Part shown: one piece after another, positions 766-64,000 of the stretch
Layout of the letters: every line of letters begins with the position of its first letter
Numbering within the stretch: position 1 is the first letter of the stretch
Assembly: GCA_021463865.1 (NCBI GenBank)
Contig: JAJTXY010000005.1
Coordinates: forward strand, 62,001-126,000
From: Anaerolineae bacterium
Lineage (GTDB): Bacteria; Chloroflexota; Anaerolineae; Aggregatilineales; J027
Direction: 5' to 3'
Length of the DNA stretch: 64,000 bases
Notes under the pieces: generated by a model
What the model saw: only the letters and a program-made list of their open reading frames with translations
Databases searched by the model: none
Told to the model about the DNA's origin: nothing
Program-made: the position numbers and the translations under genes

Positions 766-3489
766 TCACGGGGTATTTTCTCGATAGCCTTCCGATACCG
801 TCCACAAATTGAGATAGTCAATTTGGGCGTGCCATTGCGTGTGGTGTACCTGCTCCTCATATGCTCCATGCCGCCATACGTTGACCGGAGGAGTAAAGGT
901 CGTGAAATGTGGTAATACTCCGTTGGTGTGATTGGCCGCACGTAAAAATCCAAAATGGAGATAGGCATCCCGATAGCGATAGGTGATAAAGGGATTCTCG
1001 GTATTGTTCCACATCACTACCTGTACGGGTTTGTCCGTGTCGGCGATGGTATATAACCCGGCCTCGCAAAGCACCTCAAGCAACAACCGGCTTTGTGAAT
1101 CCGACAGTGTGATGATATAGGGGGCTAATTGAGCAGGGTCGGCTATGATAGCATCTATCTCATCAGCTATGCGGTTGCGTACCCCGGTATGCAGCTTAAA
1201 AAATCGCAGGTGATGGAGCAAAGTTTCACGTTTACGAGAGCGACGAGAGAGTAGAGAATCCGAAGGGCTTTCCAATGTCAATTGTAGGCCCGTTTGTCGG
1301 TGTAATTGAATCCCTGTTAGATGCAAGGTCTCGGTGTCTACATCATAGCGCTGATCAACGGAATGCCCATTGGCAGTGACCTTGACCCGTTCAGCGACCC
1401 CATGAATGTAAATATGGAAAAGTCGCTGTTCTGGAATGAGTGAAATATCGCCAGTAGGGGGGTCTATGTTCAATTCTAGCTTGTGACTGAGCCAACGCTG
1501 GGTAAAACGGGTCTCGCAAAAATGACCCTGAGCGAATGCGGTGGTCTCACCATCGTCCTCATATAAGGTAAAGCCATTATCCGCACCTGCGAAAACGTGG
1601 ATATGCAGTTCGCTTGGATTACCGACCCCATTGAGTCCATTCGCAAGGGGGATAATCGCACCTGCTTTGGCAAATAATGGGATGTCGCCTAATCTGCCAT
1701 AGATTGCGTGCCAGCAATTTCCTGCGAAGTGTTCCCCGCTAAAGAAGTGAACCCAATCGCCTTCGGGCAGCCATACCACTTGGCGACTCAGTTGGGTATC
1801 GGGGTCGGCGGGATGCACATACGGAGCCGCAATCAATTCTGTGCCAAATAGATATTGGTGTTGGCAGTGATAGGCTTCGTCATTTTCTGGATATTCATAA
1901 TACATCGGTTGCGTCAGCGGTAGACTGTCTTGGTGGGCGCGGCGGGCCATTGTATAGAGATAGGGGATAAAGGCATGGCGTAATTGCAGAGCTTCACGCA
2001 GCACCCTTAAGACTTCGGCATCTTCAAAAGCCCAAGGCCGCTGGTCATAATATTCACCTTTGCCAACATGCAAGCGCATAATGGGGCTAAAAACACCAAA
2101 CTGCACCCACCGTACAAACAGTTCGCTGTCCTGCACGCCGCCTGTATGCCCGCCAATATCGTGACTCCACCAACCATAAGCGATATTGGTTGCGGTGGGG
2201 GTCATATAGGTTTGGAAACGTAGCGAGTCCCATGTGCGGTAAGTGTCGCCGGAAAAGCCAATAGGATAGCGTTGGTGGCCTTCATTACCCCAGCGTGAAA
2301 AGATAAATGGACGGCGAGAACCATCACGGCCTAAATCATAAAAATGGAGATGATTAATTAGCCATAGTGGGTCAAGACCGGGCAGCGAACATTTTTGCCC
2401 CTGCTGCCAATCTACCCACCAGAAATCAATGCCCATCTTCTCATACGGGTGATGCAGAACTTCAAAATAGGCTTTGGCAAATTCCGGGTTGGCAATATCA
2501 AAAGCGACTGGCTGCTTGGTGGTAGGGTCAATGCCCATACGCCGAGCCATTTCGAGATATTGGGCTTCGTGGTCATGGATGCCTTCCGCAGGATGAAGAT
2601 TCAGGGCTGTTTTTAGACCCTTACGATGAAAAAATTCAATCAGGCCATCGGGGTCGGGGAATAACTCCCGATTCCATGTATAGCCTGTCCAGCCCGTACT
2701 GCCGTTGTGGGTTTCAGTGAGATGCCAATCCATGTCTACGATGCACACCGAAAACGGCAGTTGGTAATCCTCAAAATTTTCAATCAACTGCACAAGCTCG
2801 GCTTGGCTGTAATTCCAATAACGACTCCACCAATTTCCCAAAATCCAGCGTGGAATCATGGGCATTGGCCCGCTGATACGACAGTAATCGCGCAGGCAGG
2901 TTTTGTAATCATGCCCATAGCCGAAAAAATACCAATCTGTTCCCCCGGCAGCACGTGGCTCAATCCAAAAATCGTCATTAAAGACAAAGGTGGTCGAATC
3001 GTCAAGCACCGACCAGCCCTGCCGGGACATTAAACCCTGTGTCAGCGGCGTATAGCCATTGATGAAATCGAGGGTACGGGTAGTGCCACCCAGATTTCCT
3101 TGTGGGCTGTCACCGGGATGCCATACCACACCTGTTTCTTTGAGGGTGATTGTGAGATTATTCGTGCTGAATGATTCGCCGGTCTCGCAGTATTCGAGCC
3201 GCAGATGGGCCGTTTCGATTTCGACGGCATTGGCGCTGAAGCGCGAAGTGAATCCCGGCACAGGCTGATCCCGATACCAAAATGCTTGGCTTGCCCGGTC
3301 TTCAAAAATTCCGTCTGGGTGATACTCGAGTCGAATCAGACGATCCGTCAGCACAGAAAATCGCGCTGTGCCAAATTGGATGACGACCTCATCATTAGCG
3401 ATGGGGCTGAGATGGACATGAAAATGTTCGGGTAAAACCGACATAACGCTATTCTCCGAGAAAGTGGGTCGCTGCTGAATAATCACCAC
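766..3489 (-). CDS. GH31 family alpha-glycosidase
   Basis: A cytoplasmic-looking glycoside hydrolase of family 31 (alpha-glucosidase/alpha-xylosidase group) with no signal peptide. An N-terminal beta domain (about residues 25-200) precedes the catalytic barrel, which starts near GNWWSRYWNYS. The nucleophile is very likely Asp360 in WWVDWQQG, and the acid/base Asp415 in GFSGDTYRTW. C-terminal beta domains follow, then about 190 extra residues after position 715 that I cannot assign. The listed start is a GTG at 3489 with AAGGGG upstream; an ATG at 3444 (MSVLPEHF) has its own GGAG nine bases upstream and may be the true start. The gene lies 4 bases after the permease stop, so it is co-transcribed and probably hydrolyses the imported oligosaccharide. 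Substrate linkage is inferred only as alpha. Confidence 0.92.
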   Translation of the reverse strand: MVIIQQRPTFSENSVMSVLPEHFHVHLSPIANDEVVIQFGTARFSVLTDRLIRLEYHPDGIFEDRASQAFWYRDQPVPGFTSRFSANAVEIETAHLRLEYCETGESFSTNNLTITLKETGVVWHPGDSPQGNLGGTTRTLDFINGYTPLTQGLMSRQGWSVLDDSTTFVFNDDFWIEPRAAGGTDWYFFGYGHDYKTCLRDYCRISGPMPMIPRWILGNWWSRYWNYSQAELVQLIENFEDYQLPFSVCIVDMDWHLTETHNGSTGWTGYTWNRELFPDPDGLIEFFHRKGLKTALNLHPAEGIHDHEAQYLEMARRMGIDPTTKQPVAFDIANPEFAKAYFEVLHHPYEKMGIDFWWVDWQQGQKCSLPGLDPLWLINHLHFYDLGRDGSRRPFIFSRWGNEGHQRYPIGFSGDTYRTWDSLRFQTYMTPTATNIAYGWWSHDIGGHTGGVQDSELFVRWVQFGVFSPIMRLHVGKGEYYDQRPWAFEDAEVLRVLREALQLRHAFIPYLYTMARRAHQDSLPLTQPMYYEYPENDEAYHCQHQYLFGTELIAAPYVHPADPDTQLSRQVVWLPEGDWVHFFSGEHFAGNCWHAIYGRLGDIPLFAKAGAIIPLANGLNGVGNPSELHIHVFAGADNGFTLYEDDGETTAFAQGHFCETRFTQRWLSHKLELNIDPPTGDISLIPEQRLFHIYIHGVAERVKVTANGHSVDQRYDVDTETLHLTGIQLHRQTGLQLTLESPSDSLLSRRSRKRETLLHHLRFFKLHTGVRNRIADEIDAIIADPAQLAPYIITLSDSQSRLLLEVLCEAGLYTIADTDKPVQVVMWNNTENPFITYRYRDAYLHFGFLRAANHTNGVLPHFTTFTPPVNVWRHGAYEEQVHHTQWHAQIDYLNLWTVSEGYRENTP

Positions 3490-3493
3490 CGAG

Positions 3494-4363
3494 TTACCCC
3501 TTAATACTGCCCATCGTCAGGCCTGCTTTAAGATAACGCTGCATCAAAATGGCAATGAGCAGGGGTGGGAGCAGGGCCATAAATGCCGCCGCCATTTGAA
3601 GATTCACCCCATAATCTTTAGCAACATAGAACAGGCGCACCGTGATGGGTTGGCGTTCGGGGTCACTAATAACCAGCAGTGGCAGAAGATAATCTTTCCA
3701 AATATTCATGAACGACAGGATGCCCAAAATGATGATGATGGAGCGGGATAGGGGCAGGACAATGTAAACCAACGTTTGAAATGAAGACGCTCCATCAATT
3801 TTGGCGCTATCGGTGATGTCTGGTGGAATCCGATCAAAGAAACTCTTGAGGACAAAAATCCCAAAGGCATCCGCCGCATAGGGTATCCACAGTCCCCAAT
3901 AACTGTCCAAAATGCTTTTATGCACAATGGGTAGGTTGCCCAACGTCACAAATAGGGGCACAAGATAGGCAATGCTGGGAATCATTAAAGTTAGCAGAAA
4001 TGCCAGCATGACGAGTTGGCGACCAAATGGCTTGAGTTGGGACAACGAATAGGCCGCCATGACGGAGACCGTCAACCGCAGCAAGACGCTCACCGTGACA
4101 ATGATAAACGAGTTGCGGAACAACTTCAGCATTTTGAAGTCTTCCCATGCGTCACGGTAATTGTGCCACTGGGCTTTTTGGGGGATAAGGTTGAGGCCGG
4201 AGTTGAAGACCTCAAGACTCCCTTTTAGACCAGATGTGAAAGCATAGACGAAGGGAAATAGCACTATCAGGGCTAAGAGAGTGAGGATGACAACTGTGAC
4301 CCCATAATAAACTCGGCCTTTTAGTGTCTTTAATTCAATACTGGATAAAAATCCGCGATCCAT
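3494..4363 (-). CDS. ABC sugar transporter permease, MalG type
   Basis: Inner-membrane subunit of a CUT1-family carbohydrate ABC importer. Six hydrophobic helices are visible, the first at about residues 19-42. The cytoplasmic EAA-type loop that contacts the ATPase reads SAKIDGASSFQTLVYIVLPL (about 186-205), including the invariant G. The length of 289 residues is normal for MalG-like proteins. The ATG at 4363 follows GGGAGG by about five bases. It lies 12 bases downstream of the MalF-type gene and 4 bases upstream of GH31. No ATP-binding subunit is encoded in the operon, which is common where one MsiK/UgpC-like ATPase serves several importers. Confidence 0.93.
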   Translation of the reverse strand: MDRGFLSSIELKTLKGRVYYGVTVVILTLLALIVLFPFVYAFTSGLKGSLEVFNSGLNLIPQKAQWHNYRDAWEDFKMLKLFRNSFIIVTVSVLLRLTVSVMAAYSLSQLKPFGRQLVMLAFLLTLMIPSIAYLVPLFVTLGNLPIVHKSILDSYWGLWIPYAADAFGIFVLKSFFDRIPPDITDSAKIDGASSFQTLVYIVLPLSRSIIIILGILSFMNIWKDYLLPLLVISDPERQPITVRLFYVAKDYGVNLQMAAAFMALLPPLLIAILMQRYLKAGLTMGSIKG

Positions 4364-4375
4364 GTTTGGCCTCCC

Positions 4376-5317
4376 CTAATTTTCTTGCCGAGCGGCGATA
4401 CGGCGATTGACGATTTGATAGAAGGCGGAGAAGGCTACCAAGACAATGACTAGCACCACGCTCCATGCTGCCGCATACCCCATATCAGCGCGACCAAAGG
4501 CTCGGTTATAAATGTGCAGCACTGGTGTTAAAGTCTCACGTCGGCCCGGCCCCCCTTTGGTAAACAAGAAGGGTTCGGTAAACACCTGCACGACGGCCAA
4601 AATTTGCAGTACGAATAGCAACGACATGATGGGGAAAAGGTGGGGCAGGGTGATATGTCGAATCCGCATCAATGGGGATGCACCATCCAATTCTGCTGCC
4701 TCATACAATTCAGTAGGAATATCAAGCAGGCTGGACAAATAAATCAAGGTGGTCGTACCAAATGTCCCCCATGTCATGACTGCCACGATAGAGGGTTTTG
4801 CCAATTTGGGGTCGTACAACCACAGTTGGCCTTTGATGCCGAATAGCTCCAAAAACTCATTCAGTATGCCGGAGTCAGGATCATAAATAAAGCGCCACAC
4901 AATTACCGCGATGGATACGGGCACAACGCTGGGTAAGAAATAGACAATGCGAAAGAACCCTTTGCCAAAGCGTATTTCTCGTACCAGAATCGCTACAACG
5001 ACTGGCACAGCATACCCCAACAAAATACTCCACGAGGCGAATTCGATGCTGTTCTCAAAAATTATTTTGCGAGCAGGGTCTTTCTTCATGAGTTCATAAT
5101 TTTCAAACCCGACATTCTTAGATTCACCGATCAGGCTGACTTCTTGAAAACTCATCTGGAAGGCCCGCACAATGGGATACCACGCCACCAGCGCAAATAC
5201 GATAATCGCAGGCAGTAGGAACAAGTATCCGTTGAGATGCCGAGTGAGGCGATAGGGTAGCACCGAAAAAGGTCGTGTAATTGTGCGCGTAGTTTGCAAA
5301 GCGTAAGTAAGTTTCAT
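4376..5317 (-). CDS. ABC sugar transporter permease, MalF type
   Basis: Partner permease of the 3494-4363 protein. The N-terminus is a cytoplasmic tail of about 30 residues followed by a first helix (LFLLPAIIVFALVAWYPIV), then the usual six-helix core. The EAA-type loop reads AAELDGASPLMRIRHITLPH. Its length of 313 residues fits the short MalF/UgpA class without the large periplasmic loop. The ATG at 5317 is preceded by AAGGAG at good spacing. The gene starts just after the intrinsic terminator at 5332-5365, so its transcription must come from readthrough of the binding-protein transcript, which would keep permease levels below binding-protein levels. Confidence 0.93.
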   Translation of the reverse strand: MKLTYALQTTRTITRPFSVLPYRLTRHLNGYLFLLPAIIVFALVAWYPIVRAFQMSFQEVSLIGESKNVGFENYELMKKDPARKIIFENSIEFASWSILLGYAVPVVVAILVREIRFGKGFFRIVYFLPSVVPVSIAVIVWRFIYDPDSGILNEFLELFGIKGQLWLYDPKLAKPSIVAVMTWGTFGTTTLIYLSSLLDIPTELYEAAELDGASPLMRIRHITLPHLFPIMSLLFVLQILAVVQVFTEPFLFTKGGPGRRETLTPVLHIYNRAFGRADMGYAAAWSVVLVIVLVAFSAFYQIVNRRIAARQEN

Positions 5318-5377: not shown

Positions 5378-6781
5378 TTAGCGATCAAGCACGAAGGCTT
5401 GGAATTCTTCGGCAACCTCAGCGAGGCGGCTTTCAGGGTCGCTGTTTTCATCGCTCAAAATTTCGCTGACCAGCACACCCAGTTCCGCATAGTAATCCTG
5501 CGCTGCGGCGGGTGGTTCAGCTTGCAAGGTCACTTCACCAGCCTTAACTGTGTCGTTGAAGGCGGTATAGTTCTCAACGGGCAGCACATTGTATTGTGCT
5601 TCAAACGTCTCACGCGCGGTCTGATAGTCACCCACGTACAGCGGCAGAACGGGCTGACCGATGGCGCGGCCTTGTTCTGAAAGGGCGATTGTCGAGGTTT
5701 CATATTCAATAGGGTCGAATTGACGCCATGCTTGGAAGTAAAAAGCAGCCTCTTGTTCATCGGCGGACGCGCTACCATTGACCATCCACAAATTACCACC
5801 TGTCAGTGCCACGCGACCATTCGGGCCAGCAGGCATCGCAGCATAACCGAACTTGCTTAGATCGGCATCTGGGAATTGGTTGTTCATGAAGCCGAATTGA
5901 TCGCCTGCATAAATCACCATCGCCACGCGCTCAGAGGCCAATGCTTCGGTGATCGTGCCCCAATCAAGGGTTGCGCCGGGCAGCACATCATATTCCCAGC
6001 GCAGGTCATGAACGAAATTTAGGGCATCTACGGTTGGGCCTTCGCCGAATTGAGCACTATACTCGCCATCACCTTCGGGCTTGATGATGCCTTCGGGGGT
6101 CGCACCAAAGCCGTAGGCGATATTGGTATAATGCCAGCCCGTCGCGCCGGAGCCGTCATTGATGAAGGCAAAACCCGCGACGCCATTGTCGTGGTCAGTC
6201 AAAGCAACTGCCATTTCGGCCAGTTCTTCCCATGTCGCAGGGGGAGCGTCAAAACCCGCATCAGCCAGCATCTGGATGTTATAGGCCAAGCCAAGTGAAT
6301 AGGCGAAATCTGGAATTCCGTAGACTTTGCCATCTTGACTGGCAATCGCTAGGACATTAGGATTAAATACGCTGTCGAGGCCGGTCGCTTCATAATGGGC
6401 GGTTAAATCTGCTACCGCATTTTGACCGATGAATTTTTCGGGTTCGGTGAAGTAAGTCTTAAAGAGCGTGGGGAGTTGACCGCCTGCCACCAACGCAAGA
6501 TAAGCAATCGGATCATATTCCAATTCCAAGCCCTCGATAGTCACATTGGGATACATCGCTTGGAATTTGGCGACCTGTGCTTCATAGACTGCTAGTTCTT
6601 CCGCAAGGTCAGCCGGGGGTTTGTTGCTCACGGTGATATGAACGTCGCGGCCTTCCGCGATTTGGTCTGGCATGGTGAGAACCGCGGGGACTGACGGGCC
6701 ATCTTGCCCACGAGTAGGGGCTATGTGGAGGCTGGCGAGTGCCACCACTACGACCAAGAGTAGCGAAAACTTCAATTTCAT
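5378..6781 (-). CDS. Extracellular sugar-binding protein of ABC importer
   Basis: Family 1 solute-binding protein for a carbohydrate importer. The first 25 residues are a clear Sec signal (MKLKFSLLLVVVVALASLHI, small residues then GQ). There is no lipobox cysteine, so it is probably released by signal peptidase I rather than lipidated. The mature chain has the class's typical features: a conserved early segment on remote polymer positions (YPNVTIEGLELEYDPIAYLA), GKVYGIPDFAYSLGLAYN, and an ATWEEL segment. The length of 467 residues is normal. The ATG at 6781 is preceded by TTAGGAGA. It is the first gene of the minus-strand operon and the probable main target of the divergent LacI-type regulator. 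Confidence 0.93.
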   Translation of the reverse strand: MKLKFSLLLVVVVALASLHIAPTRGQDGPSVPAVLTMPDQIAEGRDVHITVSNKPPADLAEELAVYEAQVAKFQAMYPNVTIEGLELEYDPIAYLALVAGGQLPTLFKTYFTEPEKFIGQNAVADLTAHYEATGLDSVFNPNVLAIASQDGKVYGIPDFAYSLGLAYNIQMLADAGFDAPPATWEELAEMAVALTDHDNGVAGFAFINDGSGATGWHYTNIAYGFGATPEGIIKPEGDGEYSAQFGEGPTVDALNFVHDLRWEYDVLPGATLDWGTITEALASERVAMVIYAGDQFGFMNNQFPDADLSKFGYAAMPAGPNGRVALTGGNLWMVNGSASADEQEAAFYFQAWRQFDPIEYETSTIALSEQGRAIGQPVLPLYVGDYQTARETFEAQYNVLPVENYTAFNDTVKAGEVTLQAEPPAAAQDYYAELGVLVSEILSDENSDPESRLAEVAEEFQAFVLDR

Positions 6782-6831: not shown

Positions 6832-6862
6832 TACCGATAGTTTTTCACGGAAATTATCGGTA
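6832..6862. repeat. Inverted repeat TACCGATA-15-TATCGGTA in the binding-protein leader
   Basis: Perfect 8-bp inverted repeat with arms at 6832-6839 and 6855-6862, about 23 bases centre to centre, or close to two helical turns. It lies between the palindromic operator and the binding-protein gene. It may be a second regulator site or a leader hairpin; no T tract follows, so it is not a terminator. Confidence 0.5.
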
Positions 6863-6869
6863 CATGATT

Positions 6870-6889
6870 TTTTTGAGACGTCTCAAAAA
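6870..6889. promoter_or_regulatory. Palindromic operator, likely LacI-family site
   Basis: A perfect 20-bp palindrome, TTTTTGAGACGTCTCAAAAA, with the central CG typical of LacI-family operators. It sits in the 207-base region between the divergent binding-protein and LacI-type genes and overlaps the -35 hexamer of the promoter facing the regulator. Repression of both directions by the adjacent regulator is the simplest reading. Confidence 0.8.
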
Positions 6890-6900
6890 TAGTGTATACT
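6873..6900 (+). promoter_or_regulatory. Sigma70-type promoter for the LacI-type regulator
   Basis: TTGAGA (6873-6878), 16-base spacer, TATACT (6895-6900). The -35 is inside the palindromic operator, so autoregulation is expected. Because the operator is symmetrical, a TTGAGA also faces the binding-protein gene, but I see no good -10 at 16-18 bases on that side. Confidence 0.65.
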
Positions 6901-6988
6901 CAGACTATGGGTTTGTCAAGCAACTGACCCCAACGGTTTTTGGTATATTAATTTCGAATAGGCGTCAGCTAACGGTAGGAGAATTTGT

Positions 6989-8131
6989 ATGGCGACATTA
7001 AAAGAGGTAGCAGATTCAGCAGGTGTGTCAATGCTGACTGCGTTTCAGGCCCTAAGTCAGCACGACGCAGTAGACGAGGTAACACGCCGTTGTGTGCAAG
7101 AGGCTGCTGATAACCTCAATTACACTTTGAAAATCACCCAGATAGATATTGCCGATTTGGCAGGGGTCGCTAAAGGCACAGTGTCTTACGCGCTCAACAA
7201 TAGCGAATTGATTAAGCCTACCACGCGACAAAAAGTCTTGGAAGCAGCCCAAATATTGGGATACCACCTCAATATTTCGGCACGCAATTTGCGGATGAAT
7301 CGTACCGGAGTGGTGGGCTATTCATGGCACGTTGCGGATGACCCCAGCCGTATGAATAATTTGCTGGATCGCTTTATTTACCGTGTCACGATGGCAGCGG
7401 AGGAACGCAGCTTTCATCTCTTGACATTTGTGCAACCTCAGAAGAATGCGGATCGAGTCTATGAGTCACTAATCTCGACGAGTCGGGTGGATGGATTTAT
7501 CATCTCGGATGTAACCTATAACGACCCGCGCATTGCCCGCCTAACTGCTATGCGAGCACCCTTTGCAGCCTTCGGTGGGATGTATCTGGAAAATGCTGAT
7601 TTTGCCTATGTAGATGTAGATGGCAAAAAAGGCATCCGGTTGGTGATGGATCATTTATTAGAACAGGGACATGAACGGATCGGTCTCTTGGGTTGGCCGT
7701 CGGGTTGGCCTTTTGGTGATGCACGCGAGGCCAGTTATCGAGAGGCCATGCGTGATGCAGGGATTCATATCGAAAATGGCTGGATTGCTCACACGCCAAA
7801 TATCTTGGACTCAGCAGCGATGGCCGCCCAACAAATTATGAATTCCAAATATCCACCAACGGCGCTCGTCTGTGCAAATGATCTGATGGCGTTTGGTGCA
7901 AAATCCTATCTGGATAGTGTGAATTTACGTATACCCGACGACGTGGCCCTAACAGGTTACGATGATGACCCAACGGCCCAATTTCTTGGGATTACCTCAG
8001 TTCATCAGCCCATTGATGAGCTTGCCGAGGCCCTGTTCGAAATCTTGTTAGGAGACATCAACCAAGAACCACTCCCCAACCGACAAATCATTTTTAACCC
8101 GGAACTGGTCATCCGAAGAAGTACCCGATAG
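6989..8131 (+). CDS. LacI-family regulator with two tandem HTH domains
   Basis: Transcriptional regulator, 380 residues, cytoplasmic. The C-terminal part (about 105-380) is a normal LacI/PurR sugar-binding domain (GVVGYSW, DGFIISDV, VDGKKG, ALVCANDLMAFG). The N-terminus carries two complete LacI-type DNA-binding domains in a row. The first is residues 2-48 (ATLKEVADSAGVS then a recognition helix MLTAFQAL that lacks the usual TVSR). The second is residues 53-100 (IADLAGVAKGTVSYALNNSE, ending in the hinge SARNLRMNRTGVV). A normal family member has one. AGGAG lies seven to eight bases before the ATG at 6989. It is divergent from the sugar operon and probably represses it, with induction by the imported sugar or a breakdown product. 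Confidence 0.93.
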   Translation: MATLKEVADSAGVSMLTAFQALSQHDAVDEVTRRCVQEAADNLNYTLKITQIDIADLAGVAKGTVSYALNNSELIKPTTRQKVLEAAQILGYHLNISARNLRMNRTGVVGYSWHVADDPSRMNNLLDRFIYRVTMAAEERSFHLLTFVQPQKNADRVYESLISTSRVDGFIISDVTYNDPRIARLTAMRAPFAAFGGMYLENADFAYVDVDGKKGIRLVMDHLLEQGHERIGLLGWPSGWPFGDAREASYREAMRDAGIHIENGWIAHTPNILDSAAMAAQQIMNSKYPPTALVCANDLMAFGAKSYLDSVNLRIPDDVALTGYDDDPTAQFLGITSVHQPIDELAEALFEILLGDINQEPLPNRQIIFNPELVIRRSTR

Positions 8132-8146
8132 GTCATAGGAGCAAAA

Positions 8147-8275
8147 ATGACCAGCCTCATTAACTTAGCAGAATTACTTGGAGGCATTCGTGGTCGGGGA
8201 TTACGTCCACCCTACACGACCACCATGTTTTTGCTAAGTTTTGACCCACAGGAATTGGCTGCTCTCAACTGTTGA
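8147..8275 (+). CDS. Small ORF, 42 codons, unknown
   Basis: An ATG at 8147 with a strong AGGAG seven bases upstream opens a 42-codon frame (starts MTSLINLAELLGGIRG, ends LAALNC) directly after the regulator stop at 8131. It overlaps the 3' end of the convergent GMC gene by 11 bases. No family is recognised. The good ribosome site and short gap suggest translation with the regulator, but the length makes chance possible. Confidence 0.4.
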   Translation: MTSLINLAELLGGIRGRGLRPPYTTTMFLLSFDPQELAALNC

Positions 8276-11129
8276 TTTCCGCAAGCATCATGCCTGCTGC
8301 GTAGTCTGCCACTGTCATAATAGATAGTTGTGGATTGACCTGTACCGATGTTGGGAAAACACTGGCATCGCTGACCCACACATTTTGTAGCGTATGCGAG
8401 CGCAGATTTTCATTAATGACACCTTTATCGGGGTCACGATTGATGGCATTGCCGCCTTGGGGGTGTGCTGACGCAAAATACAGGTCTTCCGCCCGCTGAA
8501 TTTTATCCTCTATCATTTGGGCGATTTTGTCACTGTCATCTCCCGCCCGAAATTCCAAATCAACATAGGTCGAAGGCATCACCCGAATCGCACCCGCTGC
8601 CAAATAGACCTCCGACATCAGCCGGATACCATCTTTCAAGGCCTGATAGGTTGTTGAATCCTTTTCCAGTGAGTAACTGAATCCGGGGAGATAACGACCC
8701 ACAACGGGCAGAGGTGTTCGGACTTCTCCAATGGCGGCGCTTGGCACCATGACGCCACCGTTGGCAAGATAGGCATAGCGCTGCATGTTATAAAAGTGTT
8801 CCATAAACCACCCCGGCATTGCCATCGCAAACAGAGCAGGGGGATTAAACAGCGTTTCCAACATATACCCTTCGGCCTCAAGATAGCCACACATCTGTAC
8901 CCCATCATAACCACGCACGGGTTGCGGGAATTCCGCACTGACCGCCGCGCCGATGTTAAAGGATAGCCCTTTTCCAACCGGGCCTTTTAGCCCACTGTTG
9001 AGAAACAGAAGAGATGAAGCAATCGTGCCACCCGCCACCACAAAATAATCGGCATGGACATAAAAATCATGTTGGTCGTCCAATGTACATCGCAAGCCTA
9101 CCGCTCGACCATCTTGAATGTCAAAACGCAGCGCTTTGCAATTTGCAATCACCATCGCTCCATGTACTTCGGCGTCGGGAATGAAGGTCTCTAACATGGA
9201 CATTTTTCTTCCATAACGACAGCCAATATTGCAGTATCCACAACCCACGCACCCATCAAAATTCAGTTCAAACCATGCTGGCCCGCTCTTGATGCGCCCC
9301 TTGTCCAAACCATTTTGCTTCAATAAGTTTGCACCTTCGGCAAATTTGAATGACCCCGGCCCAATTACGGTCTCTGGAATAGGCTTGATATTGAGTCGCT
9401 GACGGACGCGCTGGGCAGATTCCTTTAGTTTAACCTCGTTGAGACTTGCTCCCATCAATTTCCAATTTGCTACCACCTTGTCTGGCAGGTCGAAACAAAT
9501 GCCGTTGTTATGAACCGTGCTGCCTCCTACACACGCTCCCTGCAAAACGGGCATGTTCAGTTCCATGCTGATCTGCATTCCGCCGTCTTTGTACAGGGCC
9601 GCGATCATGTCTGGTTCAGATTGCGTAAACTCTGATGCCTTGAGATAAGAACCCGCTTCCAAAATGGTTACTTCACCGGGGAATGCCTGTGCCAAGCGTG
9701 CTGCGGCAACCGCGCCACCCGCCCCGCTGCCAATCACACATATTTTGCAGTGGTGTTCTCGCTCTCGCACGACATTTAAGGCGTTTTCGGGTGGGGCTGC
9801 GGGGGTGATTGGAATGTCGGCGGTGATTAGGTTTTGGTAGCGAGGTCGCTTTGGAAATGGCTCAAAGCCGACTTGGGGATAGGTGCGCGGATCGGAATAA
9901 TAGCCTAAGACGATGAGTTGTTTAATTTGTATCATCGGACGATAAATGCCACGTCCCTGCCGAAAGACGTATTCGATAAACTGCCGTCGTTCCAAATAGC
10001 CCATGCGTGACATAGAGAGGTGCAGACCCCACAGTGGCCTCAGAAAGGTCACGAAGAGTAGCGAAATCATGGCGCTCAATTTACGCGGCGAATGTACACG
10101 CGAAAGATAGCGGTCAACGTTCATAGCAACGGCTTGTGGGGTGACGATCTCAGTGATGCCGTCACTGTTCCGCTGTTTTTCCGTCGAAAGTGGCCCTTCA
10201 ATGATGACCTCCGCGAACGCCTCTAGCTCTCTAAATAGCCAGAATGGGATATATAGCCCTGAATAAACCGACTGCTCGGCGGCGAGACGTACCCCGATCG
10301 TGATGACGGTGAGCGCCAACATGAGCCACATCACCGTGTTAGCAGAATCCCCTGTCCAATCGAAGGCTGTCGCAATAAACAGGGTTGCCGTGCTGGTCAC
10401 AATAACCGTTACCAGCATATCCCCCATCATCAAACGCCATTGAGGTCGCCATCGCACAAATAACCCCGATGCCATGACCAGCACCAACGCTATGGCACTG
10501 CCTGCCACGAAAAGGGGGTTGCCAATCCGACTCCATGCCCCGGATGAACCCAGTCGCAGCGCGATAATCAAGCTGATGGCAACTGCTCCAATGGCCGCAA
10601 TCAATCCCGCCCATTGACTGAGCCGTTTTTGGGCAGGGGTTAGGGCGGCTTGGCTTTCGCGTCTATAGGGAATGGGTTCGTGTGAGATAAACCCCCTTCC
10701 AATGCGGTAATCATAAATGGGTACTGCTAAAATCAATGTTAAGACGGCGCTTCCTAAACCGACCAATACACCGATTCCCAGAAGTGTTTTGGTCAGGGTG
10801 TCATCGGTTACACGCAAAAAGAGCGCCATAATGACCGCTGCCAAAAGCGTTGTCCCGATAAGGATGTCTGCAAAATAGGCGTTTTCCCGCACACCATCCC
10901 GCAGGGTTTGGATGGCATAGAACATCCCACTCAGGCCGCCAATCGTCAGCGCAAAAAAAATCGGATTACCCAGATAGGTGGTGCTTTTTAAACCCAGAGC
11001 CGCGATGAGCAGTGCCCCAATGAGTACAATGCCGATATAAGCACCCCAAACATTAATCCATTTTTTGAACGTTTTTTCGCGGGGTGTCAATTCATAAAAT
11101 TTTGCCGACGTGTCCATTGAATCTGGCAT
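8265..11129 (-). CDS. GMC oxidoreductase fused to an N-terminal eight-helix membrane domain
   Basis: A 954-residue two-part protein. Residues 26-285 hold about eight transmembrane helices. Residues 286-460 form a linker region (RYLSRVHSPRKLSA) like that of long-chain alcohol oxidase-type proteins. The FAD-dependent GMC domain starts with CVIGSGAGGAVAAARLAQ (glycines 467-472), continues through GGSTVHNNG, and ends with AHPQGGNAINRD and VNPQLSIMTVADYAAG, which carry the expected active-site His and Asn. A cysteine cluster CVGCGYCNIGC (627-637) has the CxxCxxCxxxC spacing of a [4Fe-4S] site. The ATG at 11129 has a strong AGGAGGT. It is the last gene of a three-gene operon with the OYE-type protein. 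Substrate unknown; a sterol, long-chain alcohol or other lipid at the membrane is inferred. Confidence 0.85.
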   Translation of the reverse strand: MPDSMDTSAKFYELTPREKTFKKWINVWGAYIGIVLIGALLIAALGLKSTTYLGNPIFFALTIGGLSGMFYAIQTLRDGVRENAYFADILIGTTLLAAVIMALFLRVTDDTLTKTLLGIGVLVGLGSAVLTLILAVPIYDYRIGRGFISHEPIPYRRESQAALTPAQKRLSQWAGLIAAIGAVAISLIIALRLGSSGAWSRIGNPLFVAGSAIALVLVMASGLFVRWRPQWRLMMGDMLVTVIVTSTATLFIATAFDWTGDSANTVMWLMLALTVITIGVRLAAEQSVYSGLYIPFWLFRELEAFAEVIIEGPLSTEKQRNSDGITEIVTPQAVAMNVDRYLSRVHSPRKLSAMISLLFVTFLRPLWGLHLSMSRMGYLERRQFIEYVFRQGRGIYRPMIQIKQLIVLGYYSDPRTYPQVGFEPFPKRPRYQNLITADIPITPAAPPENALNVVREREHHCKICVIGSGAGGAVAAARLAQAFPGEVTILEAGSYLKASEFTQSEPDMIAALYKDGGMQISMELNMPVLQGACVGGSTVHNNGICFDLPDKVVANWKLMGASLNEVKLKESAQRVRQRLNIKPIPETVIGPGSFKFAEGANLLKQNGLDKGRIKSGPAWFELNFDGCVGCGYCNIGCRYGRKMSMLETFIPDAEVHGAMVIANCKALRFDIQDGRAVGLRCTLDDQHDFYVHADYFVVAGGTIASSLLFLNSGLKGPVGKGLSFNIGAAVSAEFPQPVRGYDGVQMCGYLEAEGYMLETLFNPPALFAMAMPGWFMEHFYNMQRYAYLANGGVMVPSAAIGEVRTPLPVVGRYLPGFSYSLEKDSTTYQALKDGIRLMSEVYLAAGAIRVMPSTYVDLEFRAGDDSDKIAQMIEDKIQRAEDLYFASAHPQGGNAINRDPDKGVINENLRSHTLQNVWVSDASVFPTSVQVNPQLSIMTVADYAAGMMLAEINS

Positions 11130-11137
11130 ACGACCTC

Positions 11138-12460
11138 CTATTCAAATCCGGATGGGATGAATACCGACATAACTTGACGGATCATGGCATCATAATCACC
11201 GTCATAACGTGACACCTCATAGCAGCCAAGCGGGTTTTCAATCACGTTTGCCAAACACTTGTTGCAGTGGGTACAAGGTTTTTCGGGACGATCCTTGCCT
11301 TGTGCGAAAATGTTCACGAGATCGTTGTTGGCGACCAGCGCACGGGCGATACTGACTCCATCACACGCCCCGGTGTTAATCGCTTGGCGGATAAACGAGG
11401 CGGTTTGGAAGCCACCTGTACACAGGACTGGGATTTGAACATTCTTTTTGATTGCTCGGCTGTCTTCAAGATTGACTCCTTCAATCACCTTGCCACGTTG
11501 CCGGTTCCATAACAAGCGGAAGATGGGACGCAGCAACCGATAGCGCATTAGTAGAAAGTTGCGGAAGGTAAACACGCCACTCGAAATCATGCTGTCATAG
11601 GTTTGGGCGATCATTTCGGCGGGCAGGCCACCAATCGGATTTCGGGGGTGGGGGAACAGACTGCCTGTTGAAACATGAATGGCATCTGCACCTGCCTCCT
11701 CCACCCAACGACAAATCTGGAGTGTATCTTCGAGCGTGTTGCCCTTCTTTTCCCACGGAATGACAGCGGCGTTGAAATCTACTGCGCTGATTTTGACCTG
11801 CAAATGAAAATCGTTACCCACTTCGCGGCGAATGGCCCGAATAACATCCAACAGAAACCGCGCTCGATTCTCCAACGACCCACCATATTCGTCCGTTCGG
11901 TCATTGACCCCTGAACTGAGAAATTGGGTAATCAGATAGCCGTTTGCTCCATGCAATTCGACGCCATCCAATCCGGCTTGGCGGGCACGTCTGGCCCCAT
12001 CGGCAAAATGCTGCACCGTCTCTTGAATTTCGGCGTGGGTCATGGCCTGTGGACGAAAACCATGAAAAGATTCGATTTTGCTGGTCGAACTCAGCGGCTT
12101 GCGTTTCAGATTTTCGATCCCGGCGATGTCTTGTTGCCGCCCTGAATGACTCAACTGCATAATAAATTTGCAGTCGTATTCATGCACTTTTTCGCCCAGT
12201 TTGCGCCAAAATGGGATGCGTTCATCGCGGTCAATCGTGGCGTAATTGGGCACAATGCGCCCCCGGATGGACACAGGGACAAATGAGGAGATAATGCCGC
12301 CGACGCCGCCCCGCGCAAACTTTTCTTCCCAATTAATGCGCGTTTGGGTGCCAGAACCATCATAGTTATCAAAGCGACCTGAGATATTGGAGCGAAAAAT
12401 ACGGTTTTTGACGGTGAGGTTACGAAAATTCAGCGGTTGAAAAATGATGTCGGGTTCCAT
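11138..12460 (-). CDS. Old yellow enzyme family NADH:flavin oxidoreductase
   Basis: FMN-dependent TIM-barrel oxidoreductase of the OYE/2,4-dienoyl-CoA reductase family, 440 residues, cytoplasmic. Family motifs visible are FQPLNFRNLTVKNRIFRS at the start, FIMQLSHSGRQ, the DGVELHGANGYLITQFLS segment with the conserved His and Gly, and the phosphate-binding end region (GGFQT, GVSIARALVANNDL). Near the C-terminus CTHCNKCLANVIENPLGC resembles the [4Fe-4S] cluster site of dienoyl-CoA reductases, but the FAD/NADPH domain of those enzymes is absent because the protein stops 20 residues later. GGAGAG precedes the ATG. It is 8 bases upstream of the GMC gene, so the two redox enzymes are co-expressed. 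Confidence 0.9.
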   Translation of the reverse strand: MEPDIIFQPLNFRNLTVKNRIFRSNISGRFDNYDGSGTQTRINWEEKFARGGVGGIISSFVPVSIRGRIVPNYATIDRDERIPFWRKLGEKVHEYDCKFIMQLSHSGRQQDIAGIENLKRKPLSSTSKIESFHGFRPQAMTHAEIQETVQHFADGARRARQAGLDGVELHGANGYLITQFLSSGVNDRTDEYGGSLENRARFLLDVIRAIRREVGNDFHLQVKISAVDFNAAVIPWEKKGNTLEDTLQICRWVEEAGADAIHVSTGSLFPHPRNPIGGLPAEMIAQTYDSMISSGVFTFRNFLLMRYRLLRPIFRLLWNRQRGKVIEGVNLEDSRAIKKNVQIPVLCTGGFQTASFIRQAINTGACDGVSIARALVANNDLVNIFAQGKDRPEKPCTHCNKCLANVIENPLGCYEVSRYDGDYDAMIRQVMSVFIPSGFE

Positions 12461-60637: not shown

Positions 60638-60709
60638 GCCGTTGTAGCTCAATGGCAGAGCATTCGCTTCGTAAGCGAGAGGTTATGGGTTCAACTCCCA
60701 TCAACGGCT
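60638..60709 (+). tRNA. tRNA-Thr, anticodon CGU
   Basis: Complete cloverleaf: acceptor GCCGTTG/CAACGGC, D arm GCTC/GAGC, anticodon stem TTCGC/GCGAG around the loop TTCGTAA with anticodon CGT at 60670-60672, T arm ATGGG/CCCAT. Reads ACG. The CCA end is not encoded. Confidence 0.95.
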
Positions 60710-60721
60710 CAACAACATACT

Positions 60722-60977
60722 CCACTGCAATGATGGCGAGGAGTAGGTGATTTGAGATGTGCAGAGAGGGTTATGATTGGTGCAAGTAACCCCATCATCA
60801 CCGCCGAAGGTCGCGCCAGAGCAGATGCCCCGAAAATTGAGTAAGGGTATCCGGGTTTGCCCGTTACAGCATGAATGAGTGCTCTACCTGCTGAACTAGG
60901 GGTAGGGAACTAAGGTGGTACCGCGAAAGTAACAGCCCTTTCGTCCTTTAGCAATATTGTGACGGAAGGGTTTTTTT
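60722..60977 (+). ncRNA. T-box leader, predicted to sense tRNA-Val
   Basis: The T-box element AAGGTGGTACCGCG is at 60912-60925, and the AGTA (60742-60745)/GAA (60806-60808) pair forms the loop E part of Stem I. The specifier after GAAG is GUC (60810-60812), a Val codon, with helix GGTGAT/ATCACC above and TGGCG/CGCCA below. The TGGT of the T-box pairs with an ACCA end, as in tRNA-Val (discriminator A). When tRNA-Val is uncharged the antiterminator forms. The next genes are a methyltransferase and valS, in agreement. Boundaries of the leader are approximate. Confidence 0.92.
60936..60977 (+). terminator. T-box regulated intrinsic terminator
   Basis: CCCTTTCGTC (60936-60945) pairs with GACGGAAGGG (60961-60970), one G-U pair, followed by TTTTTTT. 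The left arm overlaps the antiterminator region just after the T-box element. Confidence 0.9.
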
Positions 60978-61988: not shown

Positions 61989-64000
61989 ATGACCGAAAAA
62001 CTGACCAAGAACTTCCATTTTCAGGAGGCCGAGAGCCGCCTGTATGACTGGTGGTGGCAGTCGGGCTATTTTAAACCCGAAATCGCCCCCAAAGATGCCG
62101 AGCCGTATGTTATCAGTATGCCGCCACCAAACGTGACCGGAGCACTGCATAACGGCCATGCCATGTTTGTCAGCTTAGAAGACATGATGATTCGTCATGC
62201 CCGAATGAAGGGTCGCGCCGCGTTGTGGGTCCCGGGGGCGGATCATGCCGGAATTGCCACACAGTTACAGGTCGAAAAGATGCTGCGGGATGAAGGCAAG
62301 AGCCGCGAAGAAGTGGGCCGCGAAGAATTCCTATACCGCACATGGGAATGGAAAGAAAAGTATGGCGGCGAGATTCAAAATCAACTGCGTAAACTCGGCG
62401 CATCCTGTGATTGGGATCGTGACCGCTTTACGCTGGATGATGGCCTGTCTGTTGCGGTGCGTGAGGCCTTTGTTCGCCTGTGGGAACAGGGTTTGATTTA
62501 CAAGGGCACACGTCTCATCAACTGGTCACCGGGATTGAAAACGGCGGTCAGCGATTTGGAGGTGGAAGACAAAGAAATTGAGGGCAAACTCTATTTCTTT
62601 AAATACCCTGTTGAAGGTGGCGAGTATATTCCAGTGGCGACGACCCGCCCCGAAACCATCTTGGGGGATACGGCGGTGTGTGTCCATCCCGAAGACGAAC
62701 GCTATCAACGGTTTATCGGCAAGATGGCGTATGTGCCGATGCTGAATCGCTCGATTCCGGTGATCGCCGATGAATACGTCACCCGCGAATTTGGTACGGG
62801 GGCACTCAAGGTGACACCGGGCCATGACTTTAACGACTATGAATTGGGTCAAAAACATAGGTTGGAGATTATCAGTATCCTCAATCGTGACGCCAGCCTA
62901 AACGAAAATGCTGGCCCCTATGCCGGGATGGATCGGTTTGAGGCGCGTAAAAAGCTGTGGCAGGATATGGAAGCGGCGGGGTTGACCATTGAGACCAAGC
63001 CCTATTCGATGGTCGTCCCCGTTAGTCAGCGGGGCGGAGAGATCATTGAGCCGATGATTTCCGAACAGTGGTTTGTCAAAATTCAGCCGCTGGCCGACAA
63101 AGCGATTGCAGCCGTGCGTGATGGTCGCATCAAGATCGTGCCGGAACATTTTGAGAAGGTCTATTTCCACTGGCTGGAAAACATCCAAGACTGGTGTGTC
63201 AGCCGTCAGTTGTGGTGGGGACACCGTATCCCAGCGTGGACACACCGCGAAACAGGGGAAATCCGTGTGACTCGTGACGGCCCACCGGATGTGTCGGGCA
63301 AGTGGGAACAGGACGAAGACGTGTTGGATACGTGGTTCAGCAGTGGGTTGTGGCCGTTTAGCACGCTCGGCTGGCCCAACAACACGGCGGATTTGCAGCG
63401 GTTCTACCCGACCCATATGATGGAAACGGGCTATGACATCCTGTTTTTCTGGGTGGCCCGTATGATTATGATGGGCTTGTGGTTCACCGATGAACCGCCC
63501 TTTGAGACGGTCTATCTGCATGGCCTCGTGCGCGACGAGCAGGGCCGTAAGATGAGCAAGACCACTGGGAATGTGATTGACCCACTGGAAATCGTGCAGG
63601 AATTTGGTGCGGATGCCTTGCGGTTTACCTTGCTGACAGGCGGCGCCCCCGGCAGTGACATGAATCTGGCGATGAGCCGTATCGAACACAGCCGCAATTT
63701 CGGAAACAAGCTGTGGCAGATTGCCCGGTTCATTCTGAGCAATCTTGAAGACGATCAGCCGCTAGATTTGCCCAAGCCTGCCACGTTAGATCTGCCGAGT
63801 CGCTGGATTCTCAGCCGCTTGACTGAACTGATTCAGAATGTGGATCGGTTATTCGAGGGGCATAATTATGGAGAGGCCGGACGCCAAATTCTTAGCTTTG
63901 TGTGGGACGAATTTGCCGACTGGTATGTGGAAATCAGCAAGGCAGCATTGTATGGTGGTGATCTGGAAGCCAAAGCCAGCACACGTGCTACGCTCCTCTA
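61989..64000 (+). CDS. valS: Valyl-tRNA synthetase (3' end beyond the window)
   Basis: About 670 of an expected 880-950 codons are present. Class I synthetase: start MTEKLTKNFHFQEAESRLYDWW, signature PPPNVTGALHNGHA (HNGH variant of HIGH, 62148-62159), WVPGADHAGIATQ, editing domain (VATTRPETILGDTAVCVHP, GTGALKVTPGHDFNDYELG) and GRKMSKTTGN near 63549 (KMSKS). It attaches valine to tRNA-Val and edits Thr. CTGAGGA precedes the ATG at 61989. Control by the T-box at 60722 is expected because the specifier is Val. Confidence 0.97.
   Translation, partial: MTEKLTKNFHFQEAESRLYDWWWQSGYFKPEIAPKDAEPYVISMPPPNVTGALHNGHAMFVSLEDMMIRHARMKGRAALWVPGADHAGIATQLQVEKMLRDEGKSREEVGREEFLYRTWEWKEKYGGEIQNQLRKLGASCDWDRDRFTLDDGLSVAVREAFVRLWEQGLIYKGTRLINWSPGLKTAVSDLEVEDKEIEGKLYFFKYPVEGGEYIPVATTRPETILGDTAVCVHPEDERYQRFIGKMAYVPMLNRSIPVIADEYVTREFGTGALKVTPGHDFNDYELGQKHRLEIISILNRDASLNENAGPYAGMDRFEARKKLWQDMEAAGLTIETKPYSMVVPVSQRGGEIIEPMISEQWFVKIQPLADKAIAAVRDGRIKIVPEHFEKVYFHWLENIQDWCVSRQLWWGHRIPAWTHRETGEIRVTRDGPPDVSGKWEQDEDVLDTWFSSGLWPFSTLGWPNNTADLQRFYPTHMMETGYDILFFWVARMIMMGLWFTDEPPFETVYLHGLVRDEQGRKMSKTTGNVIDPLEIVQEFGADALRFTLLTGGAPGSDMNLAMSRIEHSRNFGNKLWQIARFILSNLEDDQPLDLPKPATLDLPSRWILSRLTELIQNVDRLFEGHNYGEAGRQILSFVWDEFADWYVEISKAALYGGDLEAKASTRATLL

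Follow-up and report, generated by a model that had tools for sequence, protein, structure and literature searches.

Repressors of the LacI type are described as carrying one HTH per chain (PMC4052901). Camas et al. 2010 met three proteins with two HTH-LacI (SM00354) domains among 5597 domain sequences; the three were left unnamed and discarded without analysis, and this remark was all that was found in the literature on tandem LacI HTHs (PMC2978694). An earlier note on the DNA described here had stated that known members carry one HTH, which, apart from these three two-domain proteins, is nearly right. The regulator of this study resembles the LacI/GalR repressors (PurR, RbsR, CcpA, CytR; PF00356 with PF13377) in its second HTH (HTH2), which matches PF00356, in a hinge helix with the conserved Leu, in a periplasmic-binding-protein-like effector domain (Peripla_BP) and in a CG-centred palindromic operator that adjoins a sugar transporter operon. 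Unlike these repressors, it has two HTHs in place of the usual one, the added N-terminal headpiece (HTH1) being without a hinge helix and having Tyr or Phe in place of Ser21. Membership of the LacI family is clear, and the two HTHs are a variant feature compatible with it, the second headpiece being a stable variant. Two HTH units per chain are likewise present in the DNA-binding domain of AraC/XylS proteins (MarA, Rob), an unrelated domain family where each HTH reads one of two neighbouring major grooves. No AraC-type Pfam match was obtained in the regulator, both of whose HTHs are LacI-type, and no sign of adjacent-groove reading was seen. The nearest solved relative of the ligand domain was 3bbl, a LacI-family regulator of Chloroflexus aggregans (E 3.5e-47); the solved chain comprises 281–287 residues without the N-terminal region, and the comparison covers the ligand domain.

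The window, that is, the whole stretch of DNA that was analysed, comprises 64,000 nucleotides of Anaerolineae bacterium (Aggregatilineales; J027), assembly GCA_021463865.1, contig JAJTXY010000005.1, positions 62,001–126,000 of the forward strand; position 1 of the window is contig position 62,001. The regulator gene and the parts of its product are as follows.

6989..8131, plus strand: gene of the tandem-HTH LacI-family regulator, 380 aa, ATG start, Shine-Dalgarno sequence AGGAG at 6977–6981
6995..7126, plus strand: HTH1, residues 3–46, a LacI headpiece with the rebuilt recognition helix VSMLTAFQAL and without hinge helix (Pfam, AlphaFold2, residue survey)
7121..7144, plus strand: short linker YTLKITQI leading directly from HTH1 to HTH2, family motif Y-x-L-[NK]-[IV]-T (alignment)
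7145..7270, plus strand: HTH2, residues 53–94, a canonical LacI headpiece with the recognition helix VAKGTVSYALN (Pfam)
7274..7297, plus strand: sole hinge helix, residues 96–103, ISARNLRM region, with conserved Arg99 and invariant Leu101
7304..8125, plus strand: sugar-binding/dimerisation domain, residues 106–379 (PF13377, PF00532)

A start-site artefact was rejected as the origin of HTH1 on the grounds of the ATG with its Shine-Dalgarno sequence, the conservation of HTH1 at the protein level and the lack of a strong internal start. After the regulator gene, a 42-aa ORF with a Shine-Dalgarno sequence was seen (8147–8275, plus strand); since it is broken in loci L094 and L095, it is probably not a gene.

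The protein pieces were scanned separately with the Pfam LacI profile PF00356, the curated cut-off of which is 27 bits. Residues 1–50 alone scored 41.7 bits (E 9.8e-11) and residues 51–104 alone scored 51.3 bits (E 9.9e-14), while the ligand domain matched PF13377 (Peripla_BP_3, 108.3 bits) and PF00532 (Peripla_BP_1, 61 bits), and its fold matched PurR, RbsR and CelR in a structure comparison. AlphaFold2 was run on the full-length protein with 16 relatives and on residues 1–105 alone, and both HTH1 and HTH2 were predicted to fold as three-helix headpieces. The predicted helices of HTH1 (residues 1–48) spanned residues 4–11, 15–22 and 30–42, the pLDDT of this block was 86–95 in the 105-aa model and 78–93 in the full-length model, and the HTH1 model matched the headpieces of CcpA and CelR at 0.8–0.9 Å over 47–48 residues (Z 9.4–9.9). 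Among the matches listed, there was no solved structure covering both headpieces. The proposal of the earlier note that the protein has two tandem LacI-type HTHs, which hung on residues 2–48 being an HTH, was borne out, since each HTH exceeded the Pfam cut-off alone and each was modelled as a headpiece. The note had also described each HTH as being followed by a hinge. This holds for HTH2 and fails for HTH1, which runs straight into HTH2: the third helix of HTH1 (30–42) is followed by a loop and then by the first helix of HTH2 (51–58) in the AlphaFold2 model, and both the model and the alignment place the hinge helix once, at residues ca. 96–103, after HTH2.

The recognition helices were compared in a residue survey by LacI position numbering, which covered 53 single HTHs, 32 HTH2s and 32 HTH1s. 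Position 21 was Ser in all single HTHs (53/53) and all HTH2s (32/32), whereas every HTH1 had Tyr (19) or Phe (13) there; position 25, Asn in 40 of the 53 single HTHs and in all 32 HTH2s, was variable in HTH1s. We take both positions (Ser21 and Asn25) to be phosphate- or base-contact positions. At other positions, the HTH1s shared Pro16 (24/32), Leu18 (26/32), Ala20 (29/32) and Leu49 (31/32); the recognition helix presents a conserved hydrophobic/aromatic face (M/I/L-L-x-A-Y/F-H/Q), and the core residues Leu6, Ala10, Leu24, Ala42 and Tyr47 were invariant. The mean net charge was −1.0 for HTH1 (−3 in the protein of the window) versus +0.8 for HTH2. The divergence of the HTH1 recognition helix (MLTAFQAL) pointed out in the earlier note is therefore real, and this survey found it to be common to all relatives.

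Searching 61 related genomes yielded full-length tandem homologs at 97, 97, 96, 84, 72, 70, 51, 50, 47 and 46% identity and on down to 42%, and the tandem layout was common to orthologs and paralogs over this range (97–42%). In its own genome, the regulator was the only tandem LacI protein, the 17 other LacI matches being separate single-HTH frames. Within the order, a two-headpiece profile identified tandem proteins in 27 of 154 genomes and 13 of 61 genera. In an even sample of 400 genomes from across the phylum, 4 had tandem proteins; there, tandem matches scored at least 127 bits and single matches at most 82.5 bits. A species-wide scan with one linker pattern gave 17 tandem loci. Their records bear the names of Chloroflexota groups, with the exception of L099, a tandem-HTH regulator on a contig of a 'Bacteroidetes' MAG (JAPUDW010000044.1). 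Since the neighbours of L099 are the same SBP-MalF-MalG genes as those of the Chloroflexota locus L098, mis-binning was suspected, and L099 is probably mis-binned. A search of plasmids returned only low-scoring partial matches. Short matches at L027, L100 and L132 were considered as pseudogene or partial copies of HTH1 and rejected; they start at or beside contig ends.

A tree was built from HTH2 and the ligand domain, with the HTH1 columns excluded, for 32 tandem, 3 contig-end-truncated and 54 single-HTH proteins. The 32 tandem and 3 truncated proteins formed one clade (SH-aLRT 97) versus the 54 single-HTH proteins; HTH1 was present in all 32 complete members, one change of state sufficed and no loss of HTH1 was seen. 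Since a single tandem clade was recovered without the use of HTH1, the sequences trace HTH1 to one acquisition in an ancestor within Chloroflexota and to its retention since then. The search for two-HTH architectures in Chloroflexota that the earlier note had suggested thus led to a conserved tandem clade. The HTH1 sequences were themselves monophyletic (SH-aLRT 94, from few columns), and an HTH1 profile scored HTH2s and single HTHs alike (means of 43.9 and 41.0 bits), so the source may be either the protein's own duplication or another LacI protein. Mean pairwise identity was 54% for HTH1, 54% for the ligand domain and 62% for HTH2, and dN/dS within the genus was 0.04–0.36 for HTH1 versus 0–0.05 for HTH2, with few substitutions per pair. 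These substitution patterns indicate that HTH1 is under purifying selection, looser than that on HTH2; the faster evolution of HTH1 could also mean a partly relaxed function.

The genes of the divergent operon are the following.

5378..6781, minus strand: sugar ABC transporter solute-binding protein, putative first gene of the operon (PF01547; synteny in orthologs)
4376..5317, minus strand: MalF-type permease (PF00528)
3494..4363, minus strand: MalG-type permease (PF00528)
766..3489, minus strand: GH31 glycoside hydrolase, 907 aa (PF01055, PF21365)

The SBP-MalF-MalG-GH31 arrangement was kept in orthologs as far as their contigs reach, and other clade members lie beside a GH65 phosphorylase or are co-directional with SBP-MalF-MalG. 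The effector is likely to be a glucoside or a related disaccharide. On the other side of the regulator (8265–12460, minus strand), a GMC oxidoreductase of 954 aa, the N-terminal region of which is long and hydrophobic, adjoins an old-yellow-enzyme-type flavin oxidoreductase, and this pair stays beside the regulator in L094–L096 only. Elsewhere in the window, a tRNA gene (60638–60709, plus strand) stands directly before a strong T-box leader (60721–60951, 131 bits).

The intergenic region between the regulator and the transporter operon contained the following features.

6870..6889, no strand: predicted operator, a CG-centred palindrome of 20 bp, TTTTTGAGACGTCTCAAAAA; its central 14 bp (6873–6886) do not vary among 11 orthologous loci
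6891..6919, minus strand: divergent promoter serving the transporter operon, with TTGACA and TACACT separated by a 17-bp spacer; the operator is centred 11 bp past its −10 box
6873..6900, plus strand: candidate promoter of the regulator, TTGAGA, 16-bp spacer, TATACT, with the −35 box inside the operator
6832..6862, no strand: inverted repeat/hairpin, present in the genus only and judged not to be part of the regulator's operator

The palindrome TTTTTGAGACGTCTCAAAAA contains the only exact TTGAGACGTCTCAA of the genome. The operator survey covered regulator-proximal sites. In 11 non-redundant loci whose HTH2 reads V[AG]KGTVSYALN, this 14-bp core was invariant. Each locus has a TTGACA-N17 promoter directed away from the regulator, and the operator centre always lay 11–13 bp past its −10 box. 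The information content of these loci was 1.8 bits at positions 1–7 and 0.7–1.0 at positions 8–9, and averaged ca. 0.1 bits beyond position 10 on the promoter-free side; on that side, neither an HTH1 half-site nor a conserved block was found beyond ±10 bp in the 11 loci. Upstream of the regulator gene, clade members whose HTH2 reads VS[IV]ATVSY had sites with a AAACGTTT core instead, and the HTH1 helix was alike in both HTH2 subclasses. Because the sites differ between the subclasses while the HTH1 helix stays constant, the operator follows the recognition residues of HTH2. Even, CG-centred palindromes of 16–22 nt are the norm for operators of the LacI family (PMC4052901), and in a published recognition code HTH residues 15/16 pair with operator NT-5/NT-4 (PMC2978694), a code that agrees with an operator following HTH2; on this basis, one ordinary HTH per half-site explains the whole operator. 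That HTH2 and the hinge read the operator is well supported by these comparisons. Since the −35 box of the regulator promoter lies inside the palindrome, autoregulation is likely. In L101, L123 and L128, all from a single sub-branch whose HTH2 reads VGKGTVSY, a second full-palindrome GAGACGTCTC was seen 55–56 bp from the first, the two operators flanking the divergent promoter; the extra copy is an ordinary auxiliary operator.

The earlier note had proposed that one dimer could contact both the 6832–6862 repeat and the 6870–6889 palindrome, and this could not be upheld. The repeat was found only in the same genus, more distant orthologs having retained the palindrome without the repeat, and the spaced-arm pattern of the repeat occurred 4 times in the genome versus 5 times for the reversed control, showing no enrichment; as a second site of the regulator it was rejected on both counts. 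Its outer pairs change together within the genus (ACCGATA..TATCGGT versus GCCGATA..TATCGGC), and it scores as a terminator-like hairpin, with a 3-base loop closed by 14 pairs, which is stronger on the plus strand. It reads better as an RNA/DNA hairpin than as a regulator site. The transporter mRNA is presumed to carry the repeat in its 5′ leader. A half-site read by HTH1 itself, with one dimer on an extended four-part operator or on two separate sites, would fit the conservation of the HTH1 recognition helix and the second GAGACGTCTC copy of the three loci; these copies are, however, full palindromes, as for an ordinary second operator, the operators vary between HTH2 subclasses despite a constant HTH1 helix, and the repeat outside the genus and any conserved block on the promoter-free side of the 11 loci are missing, and we regard such reading as improbable. 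The 'different half-site' and 'dimer clamp' of the earlier note are possible in a loose sense that involves no reading of sequence. The note had also offered a decaying duplicate. Although HTH1 evolves faster than HTH2, its presence in all 32 complete clade members without a loss on the tree, its invariant core residues, a dN/dS well under 1 and the shared derived substitution at position 21 (32/32) speak for a conserved clade instead; a decaying or neutral duplicate is largely refuted and we give it hardly any credence.

The best explanation of the data as a whole, which we favour with reserve, is that HTH2 and the hinge bind the operator and that HTH1 is a repurposed accessory module. The regulator would be a sugar-responsive member of the LacI/GalR family that represses both the divergent SBP-MalF-MalG-GH31 operon and its own gene, and its HTH2 and single hinge helix would read one CG-centred palindrome (TTGAGACGTCTCAA) just downstream of the −10 box of the transporter promoter. 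HTH1 would fold normally, read no half-site beside the operator and work by protein contact, be it between the N-terminal arms of the presumed dimer, between dimers or with HTH2, and this contact would tune the stability of the repression complex. Since the recognition helix of HTH1 has taken on a conserved hydrophobic/aromatic face, we infer that it most likely acts by protein contact, and a protein-contact module is more likely than a DNA reader. HTH1 could alternatively lie in the next outward major groove as a backbone clamp that reads no sequence, giving a longer footprint and a higher affinity. Its normal headpiece fold, a short linker that would put it near the outer end of HTH2 and the A/T-rich operator flanks at ±8 to ±10 in the V[AG]KGTVSYALN subclass agree with such a clamp, but HTH1 is acidic on average whereas HTH2 is not, Ser21 and Asn25, which contact DNA in LacI structures, are lost from it and the A/T flank is absent from the AAACGTTT subclass, which makes the clamp rather unlikely. 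As for the accessory module, a more specific form of it, in which the aromatic residue in place of the invariant Ser21 turned HTH1 from a DNA reader into a protein–protein module coupling the N-terminal arms of repressor dimers, is put forward tentatively. If true, LacI repressors would have gained cooperativity or oligomerisation by a route that does not use the C-terminal tetramerisation helix of LacI.

Tandem HTH-LacI proteins were noticed in 2010 (PMC2978694), and no analysis of such proteins was found in the literature. LacI repressors serve as a textbook model and are widely used in synthetic biology. With its spare headpiece, its clear predicted operator and its many orthologs, this stable natural variant makes it possible to ask directly what becomes of a DNA-binding domain that has ceased to read DNA.
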